Assembly: GCA_019096065.1 (NCBI GenBank)
Contig: JAGUCH010000009.1
Coordinates: 692,001 to 756,000 of the forward strand
Origin: Paracyclopina nana
Lineage: Eukaryota > Arthropoda > Copepoda > Cyclopoida > Cyclopettidae
Direction of reading: 5' to 3'
Length of the DNA: 64,000 nt
Below are positions 772 through 32,571 of the stretch, piece by piece (the stretch's first letter is position 1; every line of letters starts with the position of its first letter). The notes beneath the pieces were generated by a model, which had not been told where the DNA came from, ran no database searches, and was given only the letters and a program-made list of their open reading frames with translations. Made by a program: the position numbers and the translations under genes.

Positions 772-1666
772 TGATGGGCAACGAGCACATCACTTCCTTG
801 GAACGGAACATAGCTGGAATAAGACTGGACTGGACTGGATCTTCCCTGTGGAGCCCGTGGAGGCCAGGAGGCCATGTCTATTCAACGCAACATCACCACC
901 TCAAAATCACCTAAACCTCCCTTCTTCCATCATCAATTCATCACCTCTAAACTCACTGCTGCTGCTGCTGCCTGCTAATGTGAGCCGTGCATGGGCACTC
1001 TACCTGACCTTGGTTAGAGGAGAAGTGGCTAGCCAGTGCACAGAGGATTTGCTAGCTGCTACATAGAGAAGCTGCATGCTGCCGCATGATGATGGGGAGA
1101 AGCAGATGGAAGCTGATGGAAAAGACCGCCTGCGCATCGACTGAAAAAGGGAGAAAAGACTCGGGGAGTTCGATGGGAGACTTCAGAGAAGCAAGATGTA
1201 GGCCTTAGAGCTCAAGGCCTACTGAGTGAGCTCTGCCTTGCTACTGTCTACCCAGAGTTTCTCCATAGTGTGCTGAGGCATGAAGAAGATGGCCACAAGA
1301 ATATTTACTGCTGTATTTAGTTCATTGTGCTAGTAGCCATTAATTTGTGTGATGTTGCAAACTGAGTGAATAGACTGACACCTGACCATAAATCGTATAT
1401 TGGTTCTCCTGGGCAGTTTTGCATTCAAGTCTGAGGTAGTTGAGGACGTCGAGGTCGAGGACTTGGATAGGGGACCTAATCACAGGTCTACAGCACTGTA
1501 GCTTGCCAAGAGATGTCCTCGCCAGAGTTGGAGCTCTGAGGTTGCGACTTCAGGTCCAAGGCGAGTGGAGCATCCGGTACAGCACCCGATGGCTGCGACC
1601 GGTACCGAGGCCATAAAGCCGATGCTAACCTTCCTAGGCTTTAGAGGGTGTGACCGTCGCACATCA
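772..1666 (+). repeat. Element A 5' LTR (895 bp)
   Basis: Starts TGATGGGCAA and ends GCACATCA, giving a short inverted terminus. It matches 31729-32571 except for about four substitutions, a 9-bp duplication (GTGGAGCCC region), a CTG microsatellite length difference, and about 70 bp near 1286-1365 that the 3' copy lacks. It contains the palindromic-loop hairpin at 1198-1222. Confidence 0.93.
1198..1222 (+). ncRNA. Dimer-initiation-like hairpin in A 5' LTR
   Basis: A perfect 9-bp stem (arms GTAGGCCTT and AAGGCCTAC) closes a 7-nt loop AGAGCTC, whose last six bases GAGCTC are self-complementary. The same position in the related solo LTR at 17647-17671 has a completely different but again perfect stem and another palindromic loop. 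The 3' LTR copy is at 32175-32199. The layout matches retroviral dimer initiation (kissing-loop) hairpins. That function is inferred, not shown. Confidence 0.75.
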
Positions 1667-1669
1667 TTT

Positions 1670-1689
1670 TGGAGGCCCCGGAGGGATTG
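1670..1689 (+). promoter_or_regulatory. Element A primer-binding site
   Basis: After the LTR end at 1666 and a TTT spacer, the sequence begins TGGAGGCCCCGGAGGG. TGG plus a 3-nt spacer is repeated exactly in element C at 52732, which supports the assignment. I did not match it to a particular tRNA. Confidence 0.65.
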
Positions 1690-2887
1690 AGGCCACTTTC
1701 TCTCCAGATGGTTTGATCACCAAAGAAGAAAAGTCCCGTAAAATGTCTTGGTAGTGGATCAAGGCTCCTGTGCTGCCGGAGAGCAAGGAGGCAGATGGAG
1801 CGCAGGTTGGGCGGCACCCTGCTTGCGACCAGGGTGTGATAAAGTAAAAAGTCCCGAAGGCTGACGAGCTGATGTGGGCCGCTGTTCCAATGGCATGTGG
1901 GATCCTGAGCTATGGAAGCTATCGATAGAAGCTATGCTTGGAACCCATGTGTGCATTGATGCCTTTGCCGAGTCGAGGAGCACATGGATAATAGAGGCCA
2001 TGTTGACCCGGCCCCGTGAAGATGTCTTCCATGGACCATTTGTTATGAAGATGAGCCTACGCTGATTGACGATGACCTTGTATTCCTGGGGGTGAATGCA
2101 CGAGGTGCAGTCCCCGCTTGGCATAGCTTGGAGTATGGGTGCCAAGGCAGCCGGAGTGCAAGCCAAGGTGCAGGTTGCTGACCTGTGCCTCTGTGAACTT
2201 TTGGAGGGGCGAGCGAGCGCGAGTGGGAGCCATGAGGTACCTTGCCCAAAGATTGGTCGTTGCAGATGGAAGAAGATATAATTGTGGCTCGATGATGAGC
2301 CGAAACCCCAAGTAGGTCACCCATGGAGCCTGCATTGGATGCCACAAAGGAACATGCGTGTTGGGGACCAGAAAAAAACTGGCTAACCGGAGATCTGATG
2401 CCGAGGGCGTGTGGATGGTTGGCCGGCCCGCACTCGAGGAGGAGTGGGCAAACTTCTTTTTTTTTCATTCACTAAGTCGACACTGGTTGGCGAAGTGGCA
2501 TACCTTTTGTTGAAAGTTTATGCACCCTTTGTTCTTTTTCAGAAACCTTGTGAACCTTAGAACCTTTGATAATATCATCACCTTATACAGGCGCTCTGTG
2601 TGCTCCCCTTGAACCCAAAAAACCTTCCATATTGAGAGTTAGAGAGTGAGTGTGTGTGTGAATTGTCTGGGCCGCTCATAGCCCTGATAATTATAACAAA
2701 TAAACGAGCTTAGTAATTGCACCCTTTTTCTCTGTGTCACTTGACGCGGCGTAGTAAGTAGGAAAAGCTTCCCTGTGCTTTGAACAGTGTATAGTTTGTT
2801 CTGTAATACCGAATTTAGTACAATTAAAAGTTGTACTAGGACCAGAAAATTTGAGTGTGACTCCGTTGCACCAATAAAGAACTAGAA
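1690..2887 (+). other. Element A leader, noncoding
   Basis: About 1.2 kb between the primer site and the gag ATG. Short overlapping frames on both strands (for example near 1760-2470) have no family resemblance and are treated as chance. A GTGTGTGTG run lies near 2650. Packaging signals would be expected here but none is identifiable. Confidence 0.5.
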
Positions 2888-5195
2888 ATGGCTTCCCGAG
2901 ATTCTCGCAGGAACAATTTGGAGGACGAGGTCATGATGACCAAGGAACGACTCTTGGCTCATATGAAAGTGAGTGAGGAGGAGCTTAAAACTTTGCTGAA
3001 GGCTTGCTCACCTACTGGCTCTTGCCAGCAGGCTGTGGTGGAATTCTACCAATATGTGGCTATACCAGAAGGGTTAGAATATGTTTCAGTAACAACTGAA
3101 CAGGTCGCAGCAAAGTGGTCGAACATGAGGGTTAACGTGGTCCCTAGGGAACCCATCAAACCGCTGGATGAGCACATTAAGGCTATCCTCAGTACCATGC
3201 CCAAACGGGATCCGGTTGGTCAGGTAGTGACATTGATTAAGTACATTGATGAGTTGGATCCTGTAACAATGACAAGCATAACTTGCGCTATGTTAAGTAT
3301 CTGCTTTGGTATAGAAGGGATTTTGGATATCTTGGAGGAGAAGAAGGAGAAAGGATCGCTTGCTGTAATACTTGAGGCTTCAGCTGAAGGTGCTCGACTT
3401 ATGGGAGAGCAATTGTCGAGAACTCATGGTATTATTGCTAAATTAATAACCGATGAATGGCGACAGATACGAAAGTATGGAAATGGGTTTAGGATAGCTG
3501 CCGTTTTGTTTGGATTAGAACAGGAGTTCTTCTTTAAGAAGGCCCCTACAACTGGGCAAAAGGTGAAGTTCGACGACACGACTGTGGGAGGAGGCAATGC
3601 TGATATGTCTTCTATTGTCGGGCCACCCGGTAACAGGCACACTGACATAACTCACGGACAGGACGATGGGAACTGTTCAGTTTTAACCTCGACGAAAATG
3701 AATCCTAGGGACCTGCATAATATAACACAGTCGGTAACACTGCCGCCTGCTGATATTGTTCACAGGACTGTAAAGAAGTTGTTGATTGGGGGACAGCTGA
3801 ATTTGCAGGAATTGAGTATGGTGAAAGCGTATTGTACCAAGATGCATGATGCTTCCACAGCCAATAAAATCGTTGCCTCTGCCCAGGTCACGGCAAGGCA
3901 CATGATTGGGGCAACTGTAGATGCTATATATGAGAAAAATCTAGAAAGGACCTTGAAGATTGTGGATGCTGCCACTAAAGAGTGGTTGGTACCACAGTCT
4001 GATGTGGTGTATGATGAGTCAGCCCCACTTGAGGAACGGCTTAAGATAATAAACATTGACGAAATACGGGATGTGGAATCTGCCAGACGAGTGGTGCTCC
4101 AAATGGTAGACCCTAATATGTCCTCAGCTAGGAAAATTATAGAGATGCAAAAGTTGTTTAGTGTACTTAGTACATGGGACGAGTTTACTTCCCTTCAAAA
4201 GCAAATATTGGCTGAAGGTTACTTGAAAAGTCCTGAGATCAGTGTTGCTTCCAGTACGAGTCATGATACGTCACGTAGTGTTTATGACCCAACTAGTAAG
4301 AAGGGGTACATTGCACTGCCACCTGCTGGAAATGTCAAGCATGCCAGCATGCAGGCTTTGAAGGATGTCCGATCAAAATTCACTAAACGTTTTGACTTGC
4401 ATAGTTCCTCGCTAACAGCAGAGAACATACAGGACTTTTTGACATACTTTTCCAGAACCGCATGTGGAAATGATTGGACTCATGAAGCCCTCTTAGAGGC
4501 AATGTGTGAAGGTTCTACTTCAAACACTAGCCTCTACTTTAGAGGCATGGCTGCTGATGGAATGGATTTATTGTGGCAAGATATCTTTGACGACTGATAT
4601 CTAGTGATGAGAACAATATTGCACCTAGGAGTGCGTTGGCTTTTAAAATTATGGGAAATCTCATTGGTAGCGACCTCGGGACTTATGTCCCTAGGATCGT
4701 GAACGTGCTCACAGAGATGATAGGCTGCCCATGAACCCAGCTATGAGGGCTAAGCCTAGGATTGCTATGATCGAAGCAACTGAGGAAGATATGCTCGATA
4801 GCGCTAGTGTAATGTCGGTAGCATCCGGACGCAGAACCGAAAGTGCAAAAATTATAAATGAACTTCAAAGTGAGCTTGCTAGAGCTAATTTTGAATTGGG
4901 AAAACAGGCAGTTGAAGTAGCAATGCTAAAAACTGAGACTTCCTCCGAAAGGGTCAAAAGGTAAGGCAAAACCTTCAATATCAACACCGAAAAGCTTCCG
5001 GAAGGTCATCCACTCCAAACAGGTGGATGCATCTTCTGCAACGAACTACATTCTGCCCTGAGATGCACTAATTATCCTGGCACAAGTCTTGATAGCATTA
5101 GAGATGATGGTTCACTCTGCTCGTTATGTAAAGGACTGCATAGAGAGTTTAGAGGGGAAGTTTGTTGGAAAACTCGTGCTACCCGCAAACGATGA
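2888..5195 (+). pseudogene. gag: Element A gag (capsid and nucleocapsid precursor), broken
   Basis: Starts at ATG 2888. A 569-codon frame runs to a TGA at 4595-4597. Sequence matching the C-terminal part of the element C Gag then continues in another frame (4731-4964), has an in-frame TAA at 4962-4964, and ends with the nucleocapsid region at about 4965-5195. The segment between 4597 and 4731 looks shortened against element C. The end shows two Cys-His motifs: CIFCNELHSALRC, in which the usual CX2CX4HX4C spacing is one residue short, and a second CX2CX3HX7C followed by Trp, shared with elements B and C. The stop TGA (5193-5195) overlaps the pol start ATG (5192-5194). The product would assemble particles and bind RNA. 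This copy cannot make full-length protein. Confidence 0.82.
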
Positions 5196-6966
5196 TCGAA
5201 CGAACTACTAACGATACAAAAGATAATAATGATTACATTCTTCCTTCTTTTATGAGGGGAGAATGTAACAAAGAGGTTGGAAGAGCTTACTTTGACTACT
5301 TAAAGGAACGCTCTGAAAAGAATGCATTAACACTTACAAAAGATAAGAAAGAAGAAAAGGTATTGGTACTTGATGTAAGGAGTGACATTCCCCTTGAATC
5401 ATGTAATAATAATAATACAGTTCTATTGATACTGCTGTATGCAGTAATATTTGGACAGTATTGCCTTGTCGGCTGGTATTATTGGCCAATTACCATCTTT
5501 TCTTGCCTAGGCATATGTGTGTTTTGGGATAGATATGTAAATAAAATTAGACCTGTTATTTCTAAAAAGAGAAATAAACCAGTCGCCCAACTAGCAGCAA
5601 TCGAAGTGGAAGGAGCTAAACTAGAAGTTCCACTTGAGCAAGCTGCTGGACCAGAACAGGATGACGACACCCTGAGCATATATTCCTTGAAACTGCATAA
5701 TGTTTGTGAAAGGTACTATATTCCAGTAGAAATCACTGGGAAAATAAGGCTCCATGCCTTGTTTGATAGTGGAGCAATGGTACAAATAATATCACGTACT
5801 CTGGTTGGATTAATTGAAAGTAAGATAGGTTATACTCTACCACGGGTCGAGACAAACTATGTAATAAAGAACTTAAATGGGGAAGAATTCCCAGGGAACG
5901 AGGCTGTATCTATCCAACTAGCTTTTGGAAACCGTGTGATAATTAGGCAAGCTATATTTCTTGTATCTGATTGTGAAACCCTTCTTATGATTGGGAATTC
6001 TTTGTTAGTAGATAATAATGTCAGGATGACTAGTAAAGATGGAAAACATTTTATGGACTTCCCAGGGAAATCCAAGTATAAAAAGATACCACTCTTATTG
6101 TCTAAGGAGGCTTTCTACCCAGTAGCCATAAACGAAGGGATCACACTATATCCTGGTCAAGAGGTGACAACTTTGGCCAGTATGCCTCATGATTTACCTG
6201 TCATTGAAAATGACATTGAACTAGATACTGAATCAGATGAAGATGAAGGTGATGAGTACCACACCAGACATAAGAATGTTTATTCCGGATTGGCAGATAA
6301 GTGCTTAGAATTTATGCCCTTTAAAGATTACCGGAGCCAAACATCTGGTGGGGTACTTACTTCCGTTACCCGAAAGGGACACTTTCCAGTGAACATTGGT
6401 AATCATACTAGTGAGCCCATTTATATTAATGCCCATGCAGTAATCGGGAGGGCCAGTATTGTTAAAAAGCACAAATACAAGAGTACTGTAACAGCCCACA
6501 TGGTGAACCTTAGTCTAAAGTCTCATGAACATGAAATGGACTCTTGTTACTGTCCTTACATTGACACACATGTAATAGTACAGTTCGTTGACATAAATGG
6601 ACTCTCATTAACAGATATGCATGTGTTCAACGCACATGAACCATTGAAAGGAAACTATAAGCCTATGATTTGTAGAAAATGGAATAATGTCTATATATCC
6701 TCAAACCAAGTTGATGGATACGAAGGGATTACCGATTCTATCATTGCAAAGTTTATGAACAGAGAAAAGTGGGACAACCTCCCATTGGCTGTCCTTGTAC
6801 CTGGGAACAAAATGTTATCAGGTGAACAAAAACGAATTATATTAAAAATCAATACATTGGTTGATAAACTCAAGGTGGTGTGGATGAAGTGCAAGAATAT
6901 TTGCCCAAGGTGTTTGACTATAGCATTGTGTCCAATTGGAGATTATTTAAGGGGAATGGATAGAGT
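5192..6966 (+). pseudogene. pol: Element A pol, part 1: membrane segments, protease, Cys-rich spacer
   Basis: The ATG at 5192 overlaps the gag stop as ATGA. About 590 codons are open up to the B insertion. Near residues 14-34 is a motif (LPSFMRGxCNKEVGxAxF) shared with element C Pol. Residues about 75-112 are strongly hydrophobic, enough for one or two membrane passes. A DSG aspartic-protease site follows at about residue 192 (FDSGAMVQII), with the downstream LLMIGNSLLVDN as the second conserved protease block. The rest is a spacer with Cys clusters, including a CPxCLxIxLCP motif just before the break, that I cannot assign to a family. GAGT at 6963-6966 is the target duplicated by element B; the frame resumes at 14239. 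Confidence 0.82.
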
Positions 6967-7573
6967 TGATATGTGATATCTGGTGGGGTCCAGATAGAAC
7001 GCAGGCGCAGGCCAAGGCAAGTAGGCCGCTGGCTTAGGAGATGCGAGACGTCGCCACCATCACGCAACAATGAGGAGAGGAACTCGAGGAGTCGCTTCAG
7101 GGACGCCGAAGAGCGATGTCCACCAAGAAGTTTAGCTGTACTTTGAGGTTTGCAGACTCTGGTTTCCACCGAAGTTACCGTGTGTCGGAGATAGCAAATA
7201 AAGCAGCTCATTGAATGATAAAACAGTGTTTTTAGTGAACGAACTCCATCGAGAACTCAGCCTTTCAACCTGAGTTGTTCGCGCAGCGCTGACTTGAAGC
7301 CTCAGTTCATCCAGAGGCCTCTCATTTCGGTAGTGATCCTACAGTGTGGGATATCTCGCCTCTCCAGAGTCTCGTCTCCGGATATGGGAGTGCATTGACG
7401 CTACAGAGCTCCAGGGGGCCAACCAGGACTGTCGTACTTGCCAGTCCACGAGGAGACCAAAGTGGTAGACTAGAGAGGTAGAGGCCCCTCGTCTCAAGGG
7501 GAAGGTCGATCCAGCCTCAGAGTGCAGAATACGTATTTAGGCATCTGAGGCCCCGGTCATCCAGACCCTTTCA
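6967..7573 (+). repeat. Element B 5' LTR (607 bp)
   Basis: TGATATG to CCTTTCA. Matches 13632-14238 with three substitutions. It contains an AATAAA near 7197 and the conserved-loop hairpin at 7514-7551. Confidence 0.95.
7514..7551 (+). ncRNA. Conserved-loop hairpin, B 5' LTR copy
   Basis: Arms GCCTCAGA and TCTGAGGC enclose a loop with the motif GCAGAATACGTATTTAGG. The loop motif recurs at 12397-12437 and 13387-13427 on different stems, and in the 3' LTR at 14179-14216. Confidence 0.8.
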
Positions 7574-7574
7574 A

Positions 7575-7592
7575 TGGTGCCGCGACCCGGGA
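7575..7592 (+). promoter_or_regulatory. Element B primer-binding site
   Basis: TGGTGCCGCGACCCGGGA begins one base after the LTR end. TGG start and position fit a tRNA primer site. The tRNA is not identified. Confidence 0.8.
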
Positions 7593-8218
7593 GAAGACAT
7601 TCATGCAGAAGGTGTTAGCATGAATTGACCTCTAGGGAGTCTTATTTGTCAGACCTGTTGGCTTTGCGGGGGCAAGTTGTGAACCTAACTGCCCGACTCG
7701 CGGACAGGCAAATCCCTTGTGGTACAGGGGAAGAAAGAAGAAACGTGAGGGGCGGATTAGCTACCCGCTGCCTAAAGAGAAAACACAGTAGTCTGGTGGT
7801 GCGTCTGACTGCGGGAAGGTATTAAGGACCTTTAGCTTACGCGATTCGAGCCACACTCCCTGAAGACAAAGCCAAGGTCGGAAGTTTGGGGCCAAGCTTT
7901 GGACTCACAGATCGGACAAATCCGGAAGAAAGGTCGAGATTGGGCGAGATTTACGACCTCGAACCTGCGACCCAGAGGTTGGAGGAGACCGTGAAGAGGG
8001 GAGAGACAAGACGAACTCAAGAAAGCCGAACTCAGGACGAGTTCACAGGAATTGCCGCAACAGTCGGGCGAAAGTCGCAGCAGACCGCCGCAAACTCCCA
8101 AAAGTTAAGCACAATTAAAATACAGTATTTTGCCCTAGAAACTGCTAACGAAACGCTTTGCTTATTTCTAGCACCACGGAAAAATCCGGGAAAGTTTTAC
8201 AAAAAGCTTTTCCCTCTT

Positions 8219-8417
8219 CTCAAGTTCACACTTGAGACACGCTCTGCTCACTGCTCACGTAGCTTTTTCTGGTTTTTGCTATAAAAAACCTTCCTCTCTC
8301 AAGCCCAGCCTTGAGATACGCCTTGCTCACGTAGCTTTTATTGGTTTTTGCTGCAAAAAACCATTTGTCTCCCATCTCAAGCCCAGCCTTGAGACACGTC
8401 ACGCTTTGCTCACACAC
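8219..8417 (+). repeat. Three tandem hairpin repeats, about 79 bp period
   Basis: Units begin at 8219, 8298 and 8376. Each has CTCAAG, six bases, CTTGAG (a perfect 6-bp hairpin). The first two are followed by a second hairpin with arms GGTTTTT and AAAAACC. GCTCACGTAGCTTTT is shared between the units. Confidence 0.75.
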
Positions 8418-8807
8418 AATTAATTACCACTTCAAATAAAAAACGAAAAAATATTTGCCAAATTAAAACCACATTTCTGCTCAAATTCATACGCAAATTT
8501 TCACCAACTTTGCACACTTTGCGCATCAAAAAAGAGACCTCTTTTACAGTGCAATTAAACTGCAAATTTACTCAGCATAAAAAACAGATTATTTGAACAA
8601 TTGAATAAACACTCAGCAAAACTTTGCCCAGCAACCCACTTTCAAAAGTTGCGGAGCCAAGCTTAGCTTTACACAAAAAACTCTTTCTCACCAGCCAAAA
8701 CCAGTTTGCTTCCAGCTCACAATCCAAGCAAGACAAGCCCATAAATATACTTGAAGGGCCCATTATCTTGCCAACTCACGCATACAACTTTGCAACCTTT
8801 TTGCTAT

Positions 8808-9465
8808 CTTCAAGCGTGGGCCACAAATTGTGTAGCCCCAAGTCATCTCAGCTCTGAAAAGAAAAACAGGTTTTTGCCCAGCCAAATCTTGATATCTGCT
8901 TCACGCATTCTTGCAATCAGTGGGTCCCTTTTTCAAAAAGAACCCATTATATTGCCAAGTCACGAACACAACCACAACTCTTGCTAAGCCATCCTGCCTT
9001 GAGCTATCATCATAAAACTAGCTAGAAGGTTTTAAAGGAACGGCTTAAACTGCACTTGCCAAACCACTTTTGCAACAATAAAACAGCCAAACTCAACCTC
9101 AACAATCCTTTTTACACTGGCTTAATTTAGCACAGTAATCCACTTGGAAAAGTGTCAAGCCAAATTTAGCCACACACACAAAAAAAAACCATTGTCATCT
9201 TTAAGTGTGGGCCACAAATTGGGCCCAAGCCTTTTCACTTCCATCTAGAGTGAAAAAACAGGTTTTTGCATAGCCAAAAGTCACTATCTGCATCCCACAC
9301 ATTTAACAACGAGTCGGCCCAGCAAAATAAATTGCACAGGGGGCCCATTATTCTGCGTAGTCACGACCCCCTGCTGAGCCCTCCTGCCTCAAGCTATCAT
9401 CCTAAATCTAGCCAGAAGGTTTAAAAGGAGCGGCTTAAACTGCACCAGCCAAACCACTTTGCTCA
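8808..9465 (+). repeat. Diverged direct repeat, about 389 bp period, in B leader
   Basis: Copy 1 (about 8808-9076) and copy 2 (about 9197-9465) share ordered blocks: GTGGGCCACAAATTG, ACAGGTTTTTGC, CCCATTAT, GAGCTATCATC or CAAGCTATCATC, AGAAGGTTT, and CGGCTTAAACTGCAC. Confidence 0.75.
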
Positions 9466-9509
9466 CGCGTAACTTGGAAACCTGAAATAAAAACTTTTTG
9501 CAACCAAAC

Positions 9510-11741
9510 ATGGCATCTAATGAACTTATTGACATACAGGACGATGTGACTCGAGCTCTTTACATTGCCAGGATTGCCAGTCACCTTGAGCGGGACCAAG
9601 AACAGCTCGACCAGGAAATCAAGGCCCTTACAATCCTAAGAGGGCCCATTGAAAATGTCATGCCACTGTATACGAGACGCTCGCATTTTCCTGAGGAACT
9701 ACCGAACTCCCAATTAAACCCGCAACAATTAATTGAAGCCTGGAACACTGCCGGCAGTGAGGAAAATGACATCTGGCCGCGCGAGGAGTCAGCCTCCACT
9801 TCTGAGCATATTGCTACGATCATGACAGGCTTGAGAGAGGGATCCGCATTAATGCAACTCATGCAAGTCATCCGCTACATTCTGCACATAAAAAACGCCG
9901 GAGTTGACCCAATCATTGTCCAGATCATCACGTACTTTTTTGGCCTAGAGGCTCTAGCTGAGCTTATGGCCGTAAAGAGCAAGATCAGCTCAGTAGATAA
10001 CATTCGCACTGCCCTCATTACTGCGCTACCGAATCCTCGACAAAATATACTGCCTCTGGCCAAAGGAATTGAAACAGTTTCAGTTATACTTAACCAACAA
10101 CAAATGCCAAGCCAGGAAACTGCCCCACAGGCAACACAACTGGGAGCCATGGACAGACCTCGCCTCTCATCGGGCAAAACAGCCACCAATATCAGAGAAG
10201 CCCACCGACTCCTGGCTACCCAGGAGACACACGATGGCATTGCTCCTCCTCTGCTTTTTGATGATGATGCAGTAGCTAAAGCTCAAAGCCGACTGTACAG
10301 TGGTCAACAAATTGGCAATGAGGAGGAGGTAGTCCTCCACAGTCACCTCACAAAATTGTACAATGTTCAGACAGCCACTGCAGTAATCACAGCCATTCGC
10401 ACCGTTTACAAAAGAATGCCAGGAGCCGATATGTGCTCCCATAGGGCAACTGAGATAAAATCTCGCATCAACTCGATAACTCATGATGTAATTGCCCTGG
10501 CTGAAAGCAAAACTTTAGCCAAACAATATCGCGAGCCTGCCTACCGCAAATTGAGTCAACTTGACTTCTCATCAGTCCAAGGACCTGAGTCTGCTCTCCG
10601 AGTACTAGACCAAGTGATTGACCCTACAGCACCAGAACACAATAGAAAAAGAGAAGTTGACAATGCACTGCTTGTGCTGGCCACAGATTCCTCCTTAACC
10701 CCGCTACAGCATGCATCCTTCATGCAGGCCTTTCTGGCCAATGGGGGATTGCTTTCCAATCACACGGAAGCCGCTAGCAACTCTACCTATTCGGTTGAGA
10801 GACACGAACTGTACGTCCCTCCTCCACCAAATGGTACCGTAGAGCACCCATGTGGAAAAGTTATTAAGACAATAAAACTATCCCTTTACACGGATCGCTT
10901 CAATGTGCATGATCCCCTTATTACTGATAGCAATACCAATACCTTTTTCAAGGCACTAGCAGGGCAGGCAGCCCAAAAGCACTGGTCATGGCAAGCCACA
11001 ATAGAAGCCCTCTGCCTTATGTGCAATCCAAGCACTGTTCGCCTAATTCAGACATTAATGCTTGAACCCAATGCCTTCAAAACTGTGTGGGCCCATTTGC
11101 AATCCACTAGCCATACAAAACCAGCTTACGGTGATGTCCAATCAAGAATAAACAGGCTGCAACTTAACGGACAATTAACCTTCTCAGACGTCATGTCCCA
11201 GTTCTTAGATTTGCGGACCCTCATGTACAAAGGGAACCGCACAAAGGGAGCTGCGATTGCGGCTGCCGTCTTGGATGGCAAATCATGGCTATCAACCTTT
11301 CACTCATCGAACTTTAACTTGATTGAAGATGCCTACGACACCCAAATAATGAGACAAAACATCCCATACAATGAAATCAAAGCATTCACCACTCTCACTG
11401 CAATCGCTACCAGCTTTGTTGGCAACAGCCCCCCACAAGCAGCTAGTACAGAGGCCCAGTCATTGTCCAGTCTACACTCTATACAGGCTGGCACTGCTTC
11501 CCATGACCCCACTAAACTCTCTACCAGGTCTCAAAGTAAACATACAGTTAGCACACAGCCAACTGACCCTGAGCAGACAGGGGCATGTCTCCTATGCAAC
11601 ACACAGGGCCATTTGTATAAAGTTTGCAAACAGTATCCTAATACGCCTAGAAAATTCTTCAGAGTAAATAATGGCCGATGTGACCTCTGTGGAGGCTACC
11701 ATCGCGTCTTAGAAAATCTAAGGTGTTGGAAAGAAAGATAG
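9510..11741 (+). CDS. gag: Element B Gag polyprotein (intact, 743 codons)
   Basis: I chose ATG 9510; the frame is open a few codons upstream but without another ATG. It is related to the Gags of A and C: a central FFGLEAL block, a block around YVPPPPNGTVEHP (compare YVSLPPDGSVLQP in C), then a Trp-rich helix region. The C-terminal end is a canonical zinc knuckle CLLCNTQGHLYKVC followed by CX2CX3HX7C-Trp. It would form particles and package element RNA. It is the only coding region of element B. That this frame is intact while A's is broken suggests B kept a selected or recently copied Gag. No protease or polymerase follows. Confidence 0.88.
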   Translation: MASNELIDIQDDVTRALYIARIASHLERDQEQLDQEIKALTILRGPIENVMPLYTRRSHFPEELPNSQLNPQQLIEAWNTAGSEENDIWPREESASTSEHIATIMTGLREGSALMQLMQVIRYILHIKNAGVDPIIVQIITYFFGLEALAELMAVKSKISSVDNIRTALITALPNPRQNILPLAKGIETVSVILNQQQMPSQETAPQATQLGAMDRPRLSSGKTATNIREAHRLLATQETHDGIAPPLLFDDDAVAKAQSRLYSGQQIGNEEEVVLHSHLTKLYNVQTATAVITAIRTVYKRMPGADMCSHRATEIKSRINSITHDVIALAESKTLAKQYREPAYRKLSQLDFSSVQGPESALRVLDQVIDPTAPEHNRKREVDNALLVLATDSSLTPLQHASFMQAFLANGGLLSNHTEAASNSTYSVERHELYVPPPPNGTVEHPCGKVIKTIKLSLYTDRFNVHDPLITDSNTNTFFKALAGQAAQKHWSWQATIEALCLMCNPSTVRLIQTLMLEPNAFKTVWAHLQSTSHTKPAYGDVQSRINRLQLNGQLTFSDVMSQFLDLRTLMYKGNRTKGAAIAAAVLDGKSWLSTFHSSNFNLIEDAYDTQIMRQNIPYNEIKAFTTLTAIATSFVGNSPPQAASTEAQSLSSLHSIQAGTASHDPTKLSTRSQSKHTVSTQPTDPEQTGACLLCNTQGHLYKVCKQYPNTPRKFFRVNNGRCDLCGGYHRVLENLRCWKER

Positions 11742-12396
11742 ATGGCAGCACTCCCAAGCAAACTAACAAGCTCTACTGCGCTACACAATACTGCACACCA
11801 GAATGGTAACAACTAACTGAAGTCGACCTTTCTGCAAACTATCATGTAAGCTCAAAAATGGCAACACAGGTCTTAAACGACTAGGTGATGCCATGCTACA
11901 AGTGCATAGTATTGAATAAGTATTCAGTAAAGGTCTCGAATTTCTATCACAATAAGAGCCGGTTTCAGGATTGCCACACACTCTCTTACAGGCACTGCAA
12001 CACACAGTCTTCACCACAAAATCAGTTGGGGTGACACCACACCAGCTTGCCGCTTGGACAGCTTTCTTCTCCAAGCACTAGACAGCACAGCCGCACTTAA
12101 AGTCTCGAAAGGCACATGTGTCCACAGTCTTCACCAAAATCAGTTGGGGTGACGAAGCCTTGGACACTTATAGTTCACTTCGATCCCAGCTGAGGCGCTG
12201 ATTGAAGCTTGGAAAATTGGCCTTGATACCCAGCCGGCGAACCTCACACTTGATATGACCCTGCAACAAGCAACCATCAGTACACTTAACAGTCAGATTT
12301 AGTATATACTCACAAGACACTGCCAGTACAGCAATAAGATACTAAGAAGCTTCATGATGATCCCTGTCTCCCTGTTAGTAATGTAGAGTATGGATG

Positions 12397-12437
12397 CCTT
12401 GCTTAGGGCAGAATACCTATTTAGGCTCTAAGCAAGG
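12397..12437 (+). ncRNA. Conserved-loop hairpin, B internal copy 1
   Basis: A perfect 10-bp stem (CCTTGCTTAG and CTAAGCAAGG) around a loop GGCAGAATACCTATTTAGG. The stem shares no arm sequence with the LTR copy, but the loop motif is conserved. Confidence 0.82.
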
Positions 12438-13386
12438 ATGACACCCAGCCTCTACCAAGGGAGATGTGGCAGCTGGAGCTTACTGCAGCCTGAAAAAGAA
12501 GAAAAAAACGCTTAAATTGAGAACTAGAAAGGACCAAAAAGCAGCAAACTTTGACGCATCATATCTCCGCAACGAAGCGTCACAGCCGACTACTTTTTGC
12601 ATCCCTGTATTCGCCTTGCAAGTCTCTACAACTTTTATTACTTGACCAAACCTCTCAGACCACTTTCATTTCGAAGTTGGTCACTGCTATAAAGCTCAAA
12701 AAACGGAAAATTTTTAACAAAACTCGGAAAATAGCTTACCCAATTTGGGGGCATCCAGGCCTCCAGAGGCGTAGTTGTAGCTTGTCCCAGTTGACAAGTA
12801 TATGCTTTGGCCCAACTCCTCCATTAAAGGCCCTCAAGGTCTCTCCACATTCTTCAAAACCACACAGGAACAACGTTTTCACTATGTGTAGCAGCTGGCT
12901 GCTACAGCTAACAGTGGTACTTGACACTGAAGAGTAAATGAGCCACAATTGCAGCAAAAAAGCCTAACGCAGTCGCAACAGTAGCTCTGTGCAACATTTG
13001 GTACTTGGTAGGTCTGGAAAAGTGACGCGCATCATGCTAACAGCACTACCAGATCGTTGACGACCCTTTTTAACCGACAGTTTCCAGAAAGAGCCAAAAT
13101 GTCATAGGCCGATCAACTATGACATCTGGCAGCGCTGCAAGACAGCGCGGCAAACCACACAGAATACCAAAGTGGCCAAAACGGGTTCAAAAAAGCCAGA
13201 ATTGAATACACACACAAGACGCGATGACGATAACCCAATAGGTAAAATACGATGTCCATGAAAATAAGCGAGTACAATATGGACACCATGATATCATGAT
13301 GTCAACAAAGCAACTGCATTTGCTAAGACGCCTGTTTTTCACCACGACAAGACCCAACGAGATCATGCTCATGCCCAGTTTGGATG

Positions 13387-23685: not shown

Positions 23686-24003
23686 AAGATCGATTCGCTA
23701 AATTGTTTCAACCTAGTAAAACGAATAAAGGCTATGAGCCCAGATTATGAGTAATAAATGGCGATCATCAAATGCTCAGGTGTAACAAACACGTTGAGCT
23801 TCGGAAATATCGCGAAATCAGGTTAAAACCGCATAAAAGTGAGTGATTCTTAGAGTCTTAATACTGTTCATAATGAGGTCATGAATCGTCAATTGGCAAG
23901 ATACATAATAATTAAAAGTGCTAACCGAAATTAGCTGAAAAGATGTGCTGTTAGTTAAACCTTTTAAATTAATTTCGGTTAAAAGCACCCGGCTTTATGC
24001 GTG

Positions 24004-25691: not shown

Positions 25692-26359
25692 TTTTATTCC
25701 CAAAAGGGAGGCCTCCAATTGGGGGAGGCTGGCCATGGGCCACGTTGGGGCCAGCCTGGCCGGTGCGGCGGCCTACCGGGGAACGCGATGAGTTCTGCAA
25801 AAGATAAGACAAATATAGTGTAGCTATAATAGCTTAAGTGAATAAGTTAGACTTACTAAACGACCCCCTCCATGGGGTCCTCCTCCGCCACGAAGAGGCG
25901 GAGGACCCACGCCGAAATGGGGGCCTGTAGAGGCCTCTGGGCCTCGCCCGGTGGACCCAGGCGAGGGCAGGGAGAGCCACCAAATAATAGGTGGCCGCCC
26001 CTGCCACGTTCAGGGCCACACCCTAGAGAATCTCTTCGGCCTGTAATACGAGAAAAAGTCGAGCTTTCGAGCCTCAAATACTTAGACAATGAAATGTGCA
26101 CTTACGAAGCCCTGAACGGGGCAGGGAGGGCATTCCTCGTGGCCCAAGGGGGCTGCGGGCGGGGCCGCAGGTGCCTGGGGCCACCCCGCCGCGGACTCGG
26201 CCGCGGGGGGCGCCCCTTCGGTCGCCGACGCAGTCTGGTGCCGGTGTTGTTGTTGTTGGGTTCTACATTTATCGTGGAAAAACACAGTATTACGAAAGGA
26301 TGCATTGGATTTGAGTTGAAATAAAAACTTACGAACAGTCCTTCAAGGAATCCCGCCAT
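25692..26359 (-). CDS. Minus-strand spliced gene 2 (four exons, predicted)
   Basis: Read on the minus strand: exon 1 from ATG 26359 to 26333, exon 2 26262-26106, exon 3 26040-25857, exon 4 from 25794. The introns are 70, 65 and 62 bp. All three begin GTAAGT and end in AG (TGTAG, TACAG, GCAG). The predicted product is about 122 residues, rich in Arg, Gly and Pro, and ends at a TAA formed across the last junction. The exons are much more GC-rich than the introns. A poly(A) signal AATAAA lies at 25692-25697. TATAAAAA at 26371-26378 is only about 12 nt from the ATG, so exon 1 may not be the true start, and genes 1 and 2 might share one transcript. No family recognised. Confidence 0.55.
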
Positions 26360-26951
26360 GTTTTGCACTATTTTTATAAACAAGGCGAGCTACCAGATAG
26401 TTCCGGATCGAAACCGGCCAAAGTCTACTTGAAAAAGCCAGGATTATAACGCAAGTTCTAACTTAAGTCTGGAAGCTCTGGAGGATGAAGGCAACTGCTA
26501 AAGGATATCGACTTCCCCACTTGAATTTGAATCCTTTATTATATATAAATAAGACGCAAGTAATATAGTATAGTCTCGAGTAATTTGGATAAGTACAGAA
26601 TCAAAATAAAAACAAGACGAGCTTACGAGACCGAGCCGGCCTCAAAATACGCGAATTCAAGGAATAGTATTACGAAATACAAACAGTCACAGTCAAAGCT
26701 GCAAAATACGAGGACTCGTCTCGTGGAATTATTGAAGGCAAAGTGCGAGGATTATTTGGTCTCCATGCCTGAAGACTGAGACTCAGAGATGATGTCGCGA
26801 TCAGGATTGTCTGGGTTACGTCCGTCTGGGCCTCGTCCGTAGCCTGCCCCATGTGCAAACCCACAACAGAGCAAGAACCAGTGTCCTCAACGGACTTGTC
26901 CACGGCCTCGTCTGAAGCAAGGTTATGCCGGCGATTCTCCCGGTTTTGAGC
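26360..26951 (-). other. 3' region of minus-strand gene 1
   Basis: Downstream of the gene 1 stop the same frame reads on for about 70 codons and a second frame ends at a TAA near 26754, so the tail may be longer than annotated. AATAAA on the minus strand at 26535-26540 could end the transcript. A further candidate exon (acceptor TTTTGCAG near 26704, donor GTAAGC near 26626) is weaker. Confidence 0.35.
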
Positions 26952-27834
26952 TCAGCGAGAGCGGCGTTTCAAAGTCTGTCGACCATATCCTTCGACAGCA
27001 GGTACCTGAAAGAATTCACCAAGATATTAAATAAGTAACCATGCGTACTATGTGGATTTTAGTTAGAACTTACCCATCCATGAGGATTGGGCACCTTGTA
27101 CAAGTGTGCCAAACCGGACATGACGCTGGGGTTTCGCCTCAAGGTACCGAACGGATCCATGGCAGCCATAGCCATTTGCAGCGACTGGAGATCGGCTTTG
27201 GGCGTGACAGGTGCCCGTGGAAGGGGCCTGCACTCTTGAGCAGTGCAACAGGAATAAGTCACAGAGGTCTCTGCACGAGGCTTGGTAGTTACCATCTCCA
27301 TGACCCCACTTGATGAGGCCTCTTGATGCGCGCGAGTTACCACTTGGTACCGCCGGCAAAAACGGATGACACGAATGCACCCATAGATTATGAAGCCCAA
27401 CAGAATCTAATAATAAGGGATGGAATCTTAGCTAATTGGGGCTAAGAGAACCAAAATGAGAAACTCACCAAGACCACACCGATGGAAGCGCCTAAGCCTA
27501 TCCATCCCATGACACCATAGCGATGGTAATTGAATATTTCGTTGACCCAGTCGCGCTGCGAGGGTCTAGGTACGAAGTTGCCTGGCAATGCAGAAGCAAA
27601 GTCCCTAGGGTTGAATACCTCAACCCCAAATGGATCTTCTTCTGGCATCGGAGTAGATACATCAATGCCAATTGACCCGTCAACCTCTGGGCTCTCCACT
27701 GCAGGCCCTTCAGGGGCCATTGCTTCGGTATTGGACAAGGAAGAGGCCTCTGTAGAAGCCTCGAAAGGAATTGCTGTTGAAGCCACCTGTGTAGCTTCCT
27801 CAGGAATCAGAGAAATCCATGCCAAAGTTGCCAT
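26952..27834 (-). CDS. Minus-strand spliced gene 1: single-pass membrane protein (three exons, predicted)
   Basis: Exons on the minus strand: 27834-27469 (122 codons), 27406-27074 (111 codons), 27005-26952 (17 codons and TGA). The introns are 62 and 68 bp, with donors GTGAGT and GTAAGT and acceptors TTATTAG and TTTCAG. All junctions are in phase 0, and the outer two exon lengths divide by three. The N-terminal 90 residues are acidic, rich in Ser, Thr, Pro and Glu, without a signal peptide or Cys. Intron 1 falls inside a hydrophobic stretch, and joining the exons completes one membrane helix (about residues 106-133), followed by an Arg- and Cys-rich stretch. An ATG at 27846 in the same frame is an alternative start. 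The membrane anchor resembles the end of an envelope protein, but no ectodomain is seen. Family unknown. Confidence 0.6.
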
Positions 27835-28110: not shown

Positions 28111-29481
28111 ATGCCCGTGAGTAAAGGGCATGATCTTGAGCTTGCCTATAAAAAGGGCACATCTTATGTTACGAGCCACAGTTCAGCAATGAGCAACAGC
28201 TTGTCTACCCTTGACAAGTTGCTTGTGGCATTGTTTACTGAACCTGATAGTGGAGAACCCAAGATGGTTGCCAAGGATCTAGAAGAGAAGGAGTTGGACG
28301 AAATTGAGGTTCAAGACCTCCTTAGAGACGACGAACCTGCTCCAACTGCTGATAACGAACAAAACTCTACGAATGGAGGCCAAAGCCGTGAAACTCCGGA
28401 TCATGACAATGGAGATAGCGAGGAACCCATCCCTTTGGGACTCATTTCCGCAAGTTTGGGTTACCCTTTGCCATTAACTGATCTTGTCAGGCCACCCCAT
28501 GTGGCGGCATTGCAAGAGTATTCGAGGATGGCTTCAAGATTCAGATCGACCACTCAGAAACCTTTCAACGAAGGTCTACTGAAAATAGCCACAAAGGAGG
28601 TCATGACTGTTGGCAAGGAAGTACCATTTGACATCACCATAAGGATTAATGGTGAACCTTACGAAAGGACGGAGCCCCGTAGGCCGTTAAAGGTTAGAAA
28701 TTATGACTGTATCGAACTACTAATTGAGCCAGTAGCCAAAGGAGGGGAGATCCCTGACTTCCTGGTTATATTTCCTATGATTGACAATTTGCCGGATTAT
28801 AATCTACCGGAAAAGATGGAGTTCAATGAACAAGTTCATAAGCTGGCCAATGTTTGAGGATGGTCTGCCGTCCAGAGCCCCACTGCCGTGGGATATTATG
28901 TCCATGGAATTTGAGGTCAGGGCGCAACCCACCTGCCTGTGGTTGTGTCTAAACACTATACTGGACGTGGGTGTATCCAGATCATGCCCACTTTGGAGTC
29001 TTCATTCTTGAACCCTAACCTGTTCAATGATTTGACTTCGATGCAACTACAACTGTACGTAGGCCCACCGTCATGCCTTAACCACGGTGTGGCCCAAGCT
29101 CCTCGAAAAATTGACGAGAAGGTCGACATGTCTGCCCTTCTACCTGACACGGTGGTCCAGTTTGTTGATCGAGCAATCAGCGAGTACCCGCAGTGTGTGA
29201 GGTACATTGCAGGAGCCAGACCCCAAAAGGTAGCTGCGTTTGTGGAAAAGGCCTGGCAACAAAAGTCTAGACGAGGAGCGCGCTCCTATTCTGATGTGGC
29301 TGGTGGGCGCCCGTATGGGTTGCCACCTAATGGCATGGATTTGGTTCAAGCTAAGCGGTCCAAAGTTGACAAGAACAAGGAGCGAGTGAGCCAACTTCTC
29401 CAAGCAAAAATGGAGGAGATGACCCCTAGCGACATCAAGGTATTCTCTGAAGCTATTGGAGGTTTTGTTGGACAATTCTGA
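28111..29481 (+). pseudogene. Gene X of element A, unknown, with two in-frame TGA codons
   Basis: A single frame of 457 codons from ATG 28111 to TGA 29479-29481, interrupted by TGA at 28855-28857 and 28912-28914. The sequence between and after the stops keeps a protein-like composition (THLPVVVSKHYTGRGCIQI), so these look like point mutations of one gene. The N-terminal third is acidic and low-complexity. The middle (PFDITIRINGEPYERTEPRR) looks like a beta-rich domain. The C-terminal part is basic (KKSRRGARSYS-like and LVQAKRSKVDKNKERV) and may bind nucleic acid. No signal peptide or membrane segment. It sits just before env, like the accessory and matrix-type genes of complex viruses. I recognise no family; an AATAAA follows at 29610. 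Confidence 0.6.
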
Positions 29482-29609: not shown

Positions 29610-29677
29610 AATAAACGGGATAGCAAAAACTGCACAAAAACTCAAGGTTTGGATGGGCCTGCCCCTGCCTATAAGTA
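29610..29677 (+). promoter_or_regulatory. Gene X poly(A) signal and env internal promoter candidate
   Basis: AATAAA at 29610-29615 lies 129 bp after the X stop. TATAAGTA at 29670-29677 lies 55 bp before the env ATG. The pair suggests that X and env are separate transcription units, comparable in principle to the internal promoter of foamy viruses. Confidence 0.4.
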
Positions 29678-29731
29678 GGACCAGCAACCGTCCATGCTAT
29701 ATAGTTGCATACAAACCTTTGTCGGGTTAAG

Positions 29732-31625
29732 ATGGTACAGTTCGTGATCTTTGCCATAATTGTTGTTGGGAACATTGCCCTGTGTGATGGTGATTACCCA
29801 AGTACTCTTATTTTGGATGAGGCCTTGTGCCATTCTGGCCATGGTTTGGTTCCATTACGCGAAATCTACCATCCAAAAACGGTAAAGAAGGCTGTAGTCG
29901 TGGACACGGAGGACTATTACAAACTTCTGCAAAAAACGGTGGGCACAATAAGTAATCTAGAATCAGTGGTTGAGACTGTGGAATTAGTCAACGAAGGTAC
30001 AAGTATGGTCCGGAAAGGAAATATGGTGATCATGGGTGAAGCCAGTACCCCTAGTACAATTGATGAAGCCTGTGCTCGACGTAGTGGTTTTGTGCCTTTC
30101 GTTCTCCGAACTCATGAAGATATGAATATATTCCTAGACCTATTAATATTTACCTCCAAGTACAACAGAAATGCCACCAAGGTAACTTTGTGTGTAAAGT
30201 TTCAAATTAGGAATGGGGTGCCAATGTCGTTGGATGGGAACACAGTGTTTTCCCAAGTACCCTACGAGGCCAAGCCGAATGATCAGATTATACCAGGGTA
30301 CCCCTGCATCACTGGACTATTCGCCATAGTCCAGGGTAAGATGAAGATGACGTCTGCTAAAGCCCATGAGGCTCATGCCGATGGGATAGCAACTTTATGC
30401 GTGCAAAATGACTTCGTGGTAACGCATAAACAATTTGTCAAGACAGAACTTTCTAAACGCAAAAACTTTCTGGAGAAAGCTTTCAATGCAGTGTTGGCTT
30501 TGGTAGAATCGGGACAATCATTAAAATTCACCGAGCAAATGTTGACTGGGAAATCATCCTTGTTAATTCCGCCTAAAGTATCTCTAGCCTTACGATTAAT
30601 GAATAGGTTTGGTGACGTTTTCATCAAATCTGGATTGTTACCTAATGATCTTCAACAAGTGTTGCAACAAGCTGACACTATTGTACAATTTGCTAAAAGC
30701 TTTAGACAGTCAGGAAAGCGCTTTAGCATTCCAACAATGTCACTTGATAAGGAAAGTAAAGAAACAGCTATAGTTACAAATACATATGAACCTCTAGCAA
30801 ACACTGAAGTCAGTGGAGATTTTATTTCACAAGGCGTAGTTGGATACAATGTATTGGAGAGCTCTCCTGAGATCACCTATAAAATAGTGAGCAGAAGCAA
30901 GAATGGACTTTTGATTCGAGATAGGTACCTAACACGCCGCAATGACGTGGCCTTTGTATCACGTGAAATACCTATCTACAGTGAATGTTATGTTCACAAG
31001 CATAACCTTACTGTTTGTGAAATACGGGATTTTGATTTGACGGAAGAAGTGCAAGTGTGTGCTAAGGTGCTTCTAGGACTTTCTCTTGGGGACCCCTTTG
31101 ACAATTGTGCCCTAGAAACCCTCAAAACTAACACCCTCACTGATGTGGGTTGTGCGAACTATAAGGGTTTCCTGAACTTAGTGTCTAGTGCCATGGTCAA
31201 CCTAACATGCCTAAACGACTTTAAAAACTCTTTAGTGCTCGATCCCGGATCCTATCAGATTCTTAGCAATTGTAGTGTCCCTAGGGTCACAAAGCACTGG
31301 CTTTGAGGACTCTCCATGGGAAAGTGATATGGTGAAATTCTTTACGAAATTCCCAGATGATGATTTGGATGGTATATTTAACAACTGGGAGATCATCCTC
31401 ACGGTGAGCTTGTTATCTACTGCCTTGGGATTTACTTGTCTGGGTATAGTAGTATGGAAGAGACAGAAGATTTGTCGTCGTTGCTACAGGGATGAAGGGT
31501 ACATGCTACCCAACACCGCCCGGTCACGACGACGATATTCTAGGGATGATCGCAAGAGAGATGCTGACCAAAACCAGCGTCTTACTGTGCGAATGGGTGG
31601 ACTCGGTGGTGCTACATTAGTATAG
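29732..31625 (+). pseudogene. env: Element A envelope-like glycoprotein, one frameshift
   Basis: I chose ATG 29732 because it starts a signal peptide (MVQFVIFAIIVVGNIALCDG). The first frame runs 524 codons to TGA 31304-31306. The membrane anchor lies in the next frame (stop 31623-31625), so one frameshift near 31275-31306 separates ectodomain from anchor. Seen in the ectodomain: multiple Cys, N-glycosylation sequons (NRNAT, HNLTVC, MVNLTC, LSNCSV) and a helical middle region around LNRFGDVF-type sequence. The second frame has one hydrophobic segment (EIILTVSLLSTALGFTCLGI) followed by a basic Arg-rich tail. It would be a type I surface glycoprotein, presumably for cell entry. I cannot place it in a viral family, and it is not similar to the glycoprotein of element E. 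This copy is broken. Confidence 0.7.
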
Positions 31626-31710
31626 CTAATTGTATCATATTTGTATTTTGACAGAGCTGGTGATAATCACTTTTTCATATTTTAGTGCTTAAAATATTGC
31701 AAAAGCTGAC

Positions 31711-31728
31711 AAAGTTAGGGCCGGGGAA
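31711..31728 (+). promoter_or_regulatory. Element A polypurine tract
   Basis: AAAGTTAGGGCCGGGGAA ends directly at the 3' LTR. It fits a plus-strand primer tract although two pyrimidine pairs interrupt it. 31626-31710 between env and here is otherwise featureless. Confidence 0.6.
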
Positions 31729-32571
31729 TGATGGGCAACGAGCACATCACTTCCTTGGAACGGAACATAGCTGGAATAAGACTGGACTGGACTGGATCTT
31801 CCCTGTGGAGCCCGTGGAGCCCGTGGAGGCCAGGAGGCCATGTCTATTCAACGCAACATCACCACCTCAAAATCACCTAAACCTCCCTTCTTCCATCATC
31901 AATTCATCTCCTCTAAACTCACCAATCTACTGCTGCTGCTGCTGCTGCCTGCTAATGTGAGCCGTGCATGGGCACTCTACCTGACCTTGGTTAGAGGAGA
32001 AGTGGCTAGCCAGTGCACAGAGGATTTGCTAGGTGCTACATAGAGAAGCTGCATGCTGCCGCATGATGATGGGGAGAAGCAGATGGAAGCTGATGGAAAA
32101 GACCGCCTGCGCATCGACTGAAAAAGGGAGAAAAGACTCGGGGAGTTCGATGGGAGACTTCAGAGAAGCAAGATGTAGGCCTTAGAGCTCAAGGCCTACT
32201 GAGTGAGCTCTGCCTTGCTACTGTCTACCCAGAGTTTCTCCATAGTGTGCTGAGGCATGAAGAAGATGGCCACAAGACACTGACACCTGACCATAAATCG
32301 TATATTGGTTCTCCTGGGCAGTTTTGCATTCAAGTCTGAGGTAGTTGAGGAAGTCGAGGTCGAGGACTTGGATAGGGGACCTAATCACAGGTCTACAGCA
32401 CTGTAGCTTGCCAAGAGATGTCCTCGCCAGAGTTGGAGCTCTGAGGTTGCGACTTCAGGTCCAAGGCAAGTGGAGCATCCGGTACAGCACCCGATGGCTG
32501 CGACCGGTACCGAGGCCATAAAGCCGATGCTAACCTTCCTAGGCTTTAGAGGGTGTGACCGTCGCACATCA
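31729..32571 (+). repeat. Element A 3' LTR (843 bp)
   Basis: Partner of 772-1666, with the same termini and the palindromic-loop hairpin at 32175-32199. It lacks about 70 bp present in the 5' copy and has a longer CTG run. Followed by the duplicated AAAT and D1 gag. Confidence 0.93.
32175..32199 (+). ncRNA. Dimer-initiation-like hairpin, A 3' LTR copy
   Basis: Same arms and GAGCTC loop as 1198-1222. Confidence 0.75.

Follow-up and report, generated by a model that had tools for sequence, protein, structure and literature searches.

The stretch analyzed here (the window) comprises 64,000 nucleotides from the copepod Paracyclopina nana (GenBank assembly GCA_019096065.1, contig JAGUCH010000009.1, positions 692,001–756,000), and the subject of this work is a giant long terminal repeat (LTR) retroelement occupying its positions 772–32571 (Table 1). 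An earlier note on this stretch had described the span as a single element, had put its length at about 24 kb once two nested elements (B and F) were removed, and had listed gag, a double-length pol, a hairpin field, spliced genes on the antisense strand, X and env among its contents.

Table 1. Features of the giant LTR element and of the elements nested in it (window coordinates)
Feature	Position	Strand	Remarks
5′ LTR	772–1666	+	starts TGATGGGC, ends GCACATCA; preceded by AAAT at 768–771
Primer-binding-site-like sequence TGGAGGCCCCGGAGGGATTG	1670–1690	+	follows the 5′ LTR
gag open frame, shortened	2861–4594	+	578 amino acids (aa) versus 863 in 5/5 fetched relatives
gag stop/pol start overlap (ATGA)	5192–5195	+	read in the window copy
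pol part 1, aspartic protease	5192–6966	+	low-scoring Pfam match, under the cut-off; DSG present in a relative
Nested element B	6967–14238	+	LTR, 751-aa gag, LTR; GAGT duplication; not part of the element
pol part 2: reverse transcriptase, RNase H, integrase HHCC	14243–17403	+	YVDD and HHCC read in a relative
Nested element F	17404–18113	+	solo LTR of 710 bp with GTTT duplication; does not belong to the element
pol part 3: integrase core and long C-terminal extension	18118–20676	+	extension without known domain
Hairpin	23918–23988	+	arms identical in the window and one relative, loop variable
AATAAA	25692–25697	−	end of probable AS2
AS2, probable antisense spliced gene	25859–26359	−	exons ~26359–26333, 26262–26106, 26022–25859; GTAAGT donors
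AS1, spliced antisense gene	26880–27834	−	exon A 27834–27469, exon B 27406–27074, exon C from ~27004
X promoter-like TATA and initiator	28147–28183	+	42 nt 5′ of the chosen ATG
Gene X	28189–29478	+	two TGA in the window copy
env promoter-like TATA and initiator	29670–29706	+	62 nt 5′ of the ATG
env-like membrane protein	29732–31303	+	window copy has lost its C-terminal membrane anchor; 637 aa in relatives
Polypurine tract-like sequence	31715–31728	+	adjoins the 3′ LTR
3′ LTR	31729–32571	+	followed by AAAT at 32572–32575

A single insertion interrupted by two others

The LTRs at 772–1666 and 31729–32571 form a direct repeat that aligns in two blocks, one of 549 columns at 96.0% identity (2 mismatches, 20 gap columns) and one of 293 columns at 99.3% (2 mismatches), the 3′ copy having lost about 73 bases relative to the 5′ copy. 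The termini read TG...CA, and AAAT is present at both flanks. The flanking DNA belongs to the gag of a different element, D, which is split at 771/32572. A second, unsplit copy of D lies further along in the window and matches the flanks at 375–771 versus 47924–48321 (91%) and at 32572–34026 versus 48318–49778 (90%). These two matches meet at 48318–48321 with an overlap of 4 bases, which is the target duplication; hence everything between 772 and 32571 entered as one element or later into it. The 31.8-kb span was thus shown to be one insertion, as first proposed, and the doubt that the repeats at 772 and 31729 might be unrelated solo LTRs was removed, the two being a true pair. An inverted 190-bp piece of the same LTR, 90% identical, was also observed at 34281–34470, 1.7 kb 3′ of the 3′ LTR.

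Elements B and F break pol at places where relatives of the element continue. Across B, positions 7012 and 7018 of the relative L009 correspond to window positions 6966 and 14247, and across F, positions 1965 and 1962 of L010 correspond to window positions 17402 and 18113. The LTRs of B are 99.5% identical over 608 columns with GAGT on both sides, and no pol frame was found among the open reading frames of B. The sequence of F is 88.7–90.4% identical (over 705–711 query positions) to a stretch 3′ of env at six loci of a related subfamily, the 40% env group. By coordinate arithmetic, with no sequence being joined, the element minus its insertions measures 31,800 − 7,276 − 714 = 23,810 bp, in accord with the earlier estimate; gag, the long pol, one hairpin, the antisense exons, X and env are all present and colinear with the family copies described below.

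Relatives in the genome, gag and pol

A search of the genome with the LTR returned 41 matches, many of them paired at a distance of about 22.3 kb. Five copies were fetched, with lengths of 22,955, 23,093, 23,197, 23,199 and 23,433 bp, duplications of GAAA, TTGC, TATG, GAAG and GGTT, and an LTR identity of 99.8–100%; since these were picked as LTR pairs, young copies are over-represented among them. The stretch TGGAGGCCCCGGAGGGATTG follows the LTR in all five, with one base variable. When genomic copies of the reverse transcriptase (RT) were sorted by identity to one family copy, 50 fell at 94–100% and 3, including the window copy, at 84–89%, followed by further groups of 10 at 76–83%, 7 at 65–70% and 5 at 51%. 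These copy numbers are lower bounds, 75 of 381 candidates having been scored. One of the seven at 65–70% is a second giant in the window, element 2, which runs from position 52116 to G000:C9:763494 (19,379 bp) and possesses LTRs of 613 bp that are 100% identical, a GAGG duplication, a gag of 848 aa, a pol frame broken near 61 kb, and relatives of X and env past the end of the window. The ends TG...CA and a 4-bp duplication are common to the window element, element 2 and 5/5 family copies (Metaviridae: 4–6 bp).

Several copies encode pol in a single frame of about 2,660 aa, and twelve RT rows at 96–98% identity sit in frames of 2,646–2,669 aa with no stop within the match. The RT matches RVT_1 of Pfam at 8e-14. 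Protease and RNase H gave Pfam matches below the curated cut-offs in both the window copy and the scanned relative, and the integrase core lies above its cut-off in the former and below it in the latter. The order of protease, RT, RNase H and integrase by which Metaviridae (Ty3/gypsy) are recognized is present. Compared with solved structures, the RT matched that of Ty3 best (4e-19), the other matches being at 9e-11, which we take to be a caulimovirus-type RT, and at about 1e-10 to 6e-9, presumably foamy-type RTs; these are best matches and not a tree. Judged by them, pol is Ty3-like and its RT is nearest to that of Ty3 among solved structures. In the protein collection, 13 relatives of pol were found among 7,999 candidates scored, the best with 25% identity over part of the query. 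Roughly 270 aa separate RNase H from the integrase HHCC finger. A second RNase H, with the older one decayed to a tether, is a mark of Retroviridae and lokiretroviruses. No GPY/F motif was seen by eye after the integrase of one copy; this motif is absent in some gypsy lineages and not required (PMC12440569).

The gag-pol junction reads TAATG in four of the five family copies and was not found by exact string in the fifth. In element 2 it reads TAA-ATG with the two frames in phase, and the frames are out of phase in the family and in the window copy. A stop-start junction was present, in differing frames, in 3/3 subfamilies seen. The fact that the pol ATG always lies at the gag stop favours re-initiation over frameshifting as the way in which pol would be started, and readthrough would be possible in element 2.

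It was also observed that the gag of nested element B has seven other genomic gags at 53–55% identity, five of which are followed, about 3.8 kb downstream, by an RT belonging to the 51% giant subfamily. Element B may derive from that lineage as a form that kept gag alone and depends on a helper.

The 3′ genes and the antisense strand

The earlier note had named other copies lacking the X-env segment as the finding that would speak against a single element, and this comparison was made. Of the 76 RT rows, 75 entered it, a fragment of 22 aa being left out; env contributed 78 of its 82 rows, X 73 of 97 (a copy split into two fragments was counted once) and the antisense exon 56 of 83. The three nearest subfamilies include 63 RT copies, and in 62 of these both X and env were located downstream of RT on the same strand, at an RT-to-env distance of 10.6–13.7 kb in 58 of the 62 and farther in 4. 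The single exception (RT 94%) is without X, env or antisense exon A nearby. Exon A, the first exon of AS1, accompanies 52/53 RT copies of the two nearest subfamilies; the exon A query, too distant for the third, gave 0/10 there, and AS1 could nevertheless be read directly in copies L033, L034, L036 and L037 of that group. Among the more distant groups, the 51% group has env within reach of RT in 3/5 and an X that matches by profile (4e-12). Single-sequence queries with env, X and exon A gave 0/7 in the 65–70% group; element 2, which belongs to it, has an env relative (tblastx 34–35% identity, E 3e-45) and an X relative visible by profile comparison only (hhalign E 5e-12; tblastx gave none). 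The presence of env and X relatives in these groups indicates that the order gag-pol-X-env is common to lineages whose X proteins are just 19–20% identical in alignment. The 3′ part comprising X and env is a standard part of the element.

The env-like protein is exactly 637 residues long in 35 of 82 genome matches, 34 of which are stop-free within the match. Hydropathy analysis of nine rows revealed a hydrophobic N-terminus in five and a single C-terminal membrane segment in eight, the window copy being the one without it, and the protein has conserved cysteines and 2–5 glycosylation sites. Between the window copy and the family, the proportion of differing synonymous sites (pS) was 0.74, which is saturated, as opposed to a proportion of nonsynonymous differences (pN) of 0.22. 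X residues 1–457 were covered in 36 genome matches, 35 of them stop-free; no membrane segment was seen in X of the main family, whereas X of the 40% env group has a single weak one. RT, X, env and AS1 were shown to be under selection within the family.

Promoter-like sites were observed in front of both genes. A TATA box lies 60–62 nt 5′ of the env ATG in 11/13 sequences from four subfamilies, and, with the spacing that arthropod initiators usually show, TATA followed by [CT]AGT[TC] occurs there in the family, the window copy and both the 40% and the 27% env groups. In front of X, the TATA box is located 42 nt 5′ of the ATG in L011, L017 and the window copy, and 37 nt in L033, L036 and L037. 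The placement of these boxes suggests internal promoters for X and env. No TATA was found in the family LTR, and TATAT occurs in the LTRs of the window element and element 2.

On the opposite strand, AS1 could be traced in the window copy and element 2 as well as in the main family and the 40% env group. Its exon A ends within a membrane segment at a donor of GTAAGT, GTGAGT or GTAAGC; exon B opens after a C/TAG acceptor, holds the rest of the membrane segment and, in copies of the 40% env group, displays YETL and YDVL-type motifs; and exon C, rich in Arg, closes with a stop, the window copy having a stop within this exon. The first intron (GT...AG, 61–91 nt) occupies the same place in 11/11 copies read from four subfamilies. 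Genome-wide, 22 matches to the exon A query span residues 1 to 148, and 21 of these hold a stop; in L017 this stop lies three codons beyond the exon A donor, as the intron predicts. The ratio of nonsynonymous to synonymous substitution rates (dN/dS) in young copies is 0.25–0.26 for exon A and 0.12–0.17 for exon B (two pairs each). Comparisons of the window copy with the family and within the 40% env group gave pN 0.18–0.34 at pS 0.41–0.81, with a ratio of 0.45 in one pair (L036-L037, exon A), and those of the main family or window copy with the 40% group (pN 0.51–0.59) are little informative, the synonymous sites being saturated or nearly so. Mismatches in two AS1 segments are distributed 15/2/42 over the three codon positions. 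As judged from these alignments, AS1 is well supported as a spliced antisense gene.

AS2, between 25.7 and 26.4 kb, is probably a second such gene. It shows three GTAAGT donors, a short exon 1 encoding MAGFL(H/E)GLF, a Pro/Ala-rich exon 2, a membrane-like exon 3 and AATAAA at its end; in the window copy a frame shift and the loss of 37 bases disrupt it. The block occurs at no fewer than 39 other places at 77–81% identity to the window (40 of 73 candidates scored). Mismatches in exon 3 fall 4/5/18 by codon position, and exon 2 has just 4 mismatches in 120 bases, none at a third position in the frame tested, which may be the wrong one. The grading of AS2 as probable reflects both this low variation and a conserved TAG 5′ of exon 3 that is avoided only if a second splice acceptor is used. 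Nucleotide conservation of the block, up to 96% in 100 bases, exceeds what coding would require, and two stretches fold better than their shuffles, one in the AS2 block (z −4.8) and another at z −3.5 (20 shuffles each). Part of the block is kept at 83–86% in the 40% env subfamily (L037:1-103 and L036:1-51), where little else of it was matched, and this part may act in RNA form or in regulation as well as code. The hairpin at 23918–23988 revealed no covariation in its arms, a comparison of two sequences that has no power, and the window contained no Rfam match at gathering scores.

Beyond the element, the region 36000–46000 of the window is GC-rich (51–57%) and contains an antisense RT-like frame, recognized by eye, and a 108-bp tandem repeat; it is perhaps another decayed element. 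Elsewhere in the genome, an exon for the chaperonin CCT-delta shows 94% identity to a metagenome protein. Among the named matches in the 120 listed of 8,000, identity is highest, at 85%, for the copepod Tigriopus californicus, then 78% for the copepod Lepeophtheirus salmonis and for two horseshoe crabs, and a Ladona fulva record (73%) is placed higher by score; this agrees with a copepod host, as far as a single gene can show.

Interpretation and comparison with known systems

We read the window element as a dead copy of a Ty3-like LTR retroelement of about 23 kb, whose lineage would propagate in the manner of a retrovirus, as a unit that combines gag and an extra-long pol with X, env and spliced antisense genes, X and env being expressed from internal promoters of their own and env serving cell-to-cell passage. 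We put the probability of this reading, which is drawn from sequence comparison as far as the retrovirus-like character, the promoters and entry by env are concerned, at about 0.7. That the window copy is dead is evident from its shortened gag, the interruption of pol by B and F, the two stops in X, the anchorless env, the stop in AS1, and the shifted and partly deleted AS2; the family has young copies. In the mechanism that we propose, the LTR would drive a full-length RNA for gag and pol, with pol translated by re-initiation at the ATG overlapping or abutting the gag stop, and X and env would each be transcribed from a TATA-initiator promoter inside the element. AS1, and probably AS2, would be made by splicing from the opposite strand, giving small membrane proteins that might help in assembly, exit or evasion. 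The env-like protein would let particles move between cells, and perhaps between animals, and the element is possibly an infectious retrovirus.

Several observations weigh against this reading, the first being that neither env nor X has a homologue found outside the genome. For env, none was detected among 5.8 billion proteins (best 7,999 candidates scored), the best values against PDB sequences (E 0.28) and Pfam (E 0.13) were not convincing, and 9/9 sequences had neither a Pfam match to baculovirus F or fusion proteins at E up to 1 nor a furin motif of the RxKR/RxRR type. X had no relative in PDB sequences or Pfam, the sole collections searched for it, and in viral contigs none of 31 pattern stretches for env or 4 for element 2 pol was confirmed. 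The two look like protein families without known relatives, and the entry role of env is putative. The name given to it earlier is justified by position, topology and conservation, but not by homology to a known envelope. The missing homologues and furin motif would suit a different membrane protein, one involved in budding or host signalling, in an element that is a plain retrotransposon. However, the hydrophobic start, C-terminal membrane segment, conserved cysteines and glycosylation sites, together with the location of env ahead of the 3′ LTR and the strong selection acting on it, argue for an entry protein, and we consider the plain retrotransposon unlikely, albeit a serious alternative.

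The promoter-like sites are open to objections of their own. The env TATA box is missing in 2/13 sequences (L041 reads TTTAAA and L035 has none), and several of the 13 are near-identical, the independent cases being the four subfamilies. Element 2 has TATAAG in the env upstream region, where the env start could not be placed, and its X TATA box lies 71 nt from the ATG; the TATA-initiator pattern is absent 5′ of X in L039. The X ATG was itself chosen as the one 3′ of the TATA box, the Met of MSDSL/MSNSL in L011 and the window copy. Furthermore, the pattern is frequent, with 15 occurrences in 56.6 kb against about 9 expected from a single-base shuffle, and the case for promoters hence rests on fixed position. 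In addition, a pyrimidine-rich AG 5′ of X in a family copy would allow splicing from the LTR transcript. The family could accordingly be real and yet produce X and env by splicing, as ordinary retroviruses do, with the TATA boxes being incidental. Against this stand the fixed placement of TATA before env in 11/13 sequences and an initiator at canonical spacing in four subfamilies, and we regard splicing from the LTR as rather unlikely, slightly more so than the previous alternative.

Regarding the antisense strand, AS1 was unrecognized in the 27% env subfamily (L039, L040) and not read in the 51% group, and a consistent AS1 promoter was not found. The over-conserved and well-folding AS2 block would agree with chance open frames lying over a conserved RNA element, but the conserved intron, synonymous excess, Arg-rich third exon and codon-position mismatches led us to reject chance frames for AS1, and the mismatch pattern of exon 3 argues likewise for the less certain AS2; as an account of the antisense frames, chance is improbable. 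The proposal that 20.7–31.7 kb consists of separate insertions or host genes that chanced into one copy, for which the nested B and F (B indeed being foreign) might be cited, can be discarded for the three nearest subfamilies given the 62/63 linkage and the colinear alignment of the 3′ part.

A bolder proposal, which we hold tentatively and would not back at even odds, is that these elements constitute a separate lineage of infectious Ty3-like copepod retroviruses with a DNA-virus-like layout, combining several internal TATA-initiator promoters, a stop-start pol, an entry protein and partner X of unknown viral source, and spliced antisense membrane proteins. Expression from one promoter is generally regarded as the rule for retroelements, and if the proposal is true, giant size would follow from abandoning single-promoter expression. 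A young multi-copy giant family (19.4 and 23.0–23.4 kb measured) that has conserved promoter-like sites inside it, spliced antisense genes and an orphan env would show another route to a complex retrovirus, outside vertebrates and probably among plankton animals of an abundant group. It should be considered that retroelements are usually taken as limited to near 10 kb (PMC6431247).

The description of a complex-retrovirus-like gene set given earlier is apt as a likeness of layout and not as a statement of ancestry. Errantiviruses such as gypsy and ZAM are likewise Ty3-like elements of arthropod hosts with an env-like third gene and a short duplication, and our element is about three times their size; it differs from them in having no Pfam envelope match, no furin motif, and extra X and antisense genes. 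Among complex retroviruses, human T-lymphotropic virus (HTLV) has the antisense gene HBZ and foamy virus an internal promoter. An antisense gene, which HBZ is also reported to be (PMC11963269), and a promoter within the provirus are thus points of likeness, with no homology seen; unlike in those viruses, the TATA-initiator here lies directly before X and env.

Burro, a giant Ty3/gypsy element of planarians, is similar in having an internal region above 20 kb, a Ty3-like pol, an env-like part and many copies (PMC6431247). In Burro, env and host-like domains belong to one polyprotein of 4,873 aa with env between gag and pol (PMC6431247), whereas our element keeps env and X as genes of their own in its 3′ part, accompanied by antisense genes, and no apoptosis-type domain was found in Pfam scans of the element proteins scanned. 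The Retand/Tat and Ogre elements of plants resemble ours in that pol is separated from the 3′ LTR by a long region containing antisense coding frames (PMC11963269, PMC6431247). However, the antisense frames of Retand are described as mostly TRP28, with no membrane segments in the sense frames (PMC11963269), whereas the AS1 product is a predicted spliced membrane protein and seven antisense pieces scanned (four from L010 and L011, three from L037 and L017) gave no match to TRP28 (PF04195). The size of Ogre is largely due to long LTRs (PMC6431247), those of our element measuring 0.6–0.9 kb. Cer1 of C. elegans is a Ty3-like element with an orphan extra protein, CERV, which is nuclear and encoded on the sense strand by a spliced five-exon mRNA (PMC10309623); X, in contrast, has a separate promoter-like start and adjoins env. 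Troyka, Odin and the lokiretroviruses are also divergent LTR elements near Metaviridae (PMC12440569, PMC9040795), Troyka having 3-bp duplications and CG...CG ends (PMC12440569) as opposed to 4 bp and TG...CA here.

Among the best-ranked open-licence papers retrieved, we found no giant copepod LTR element, no env-bearing giant LTR element whose antisense strand encodes spliced membrane genes, and no TATA-initiator sites ahead of env.

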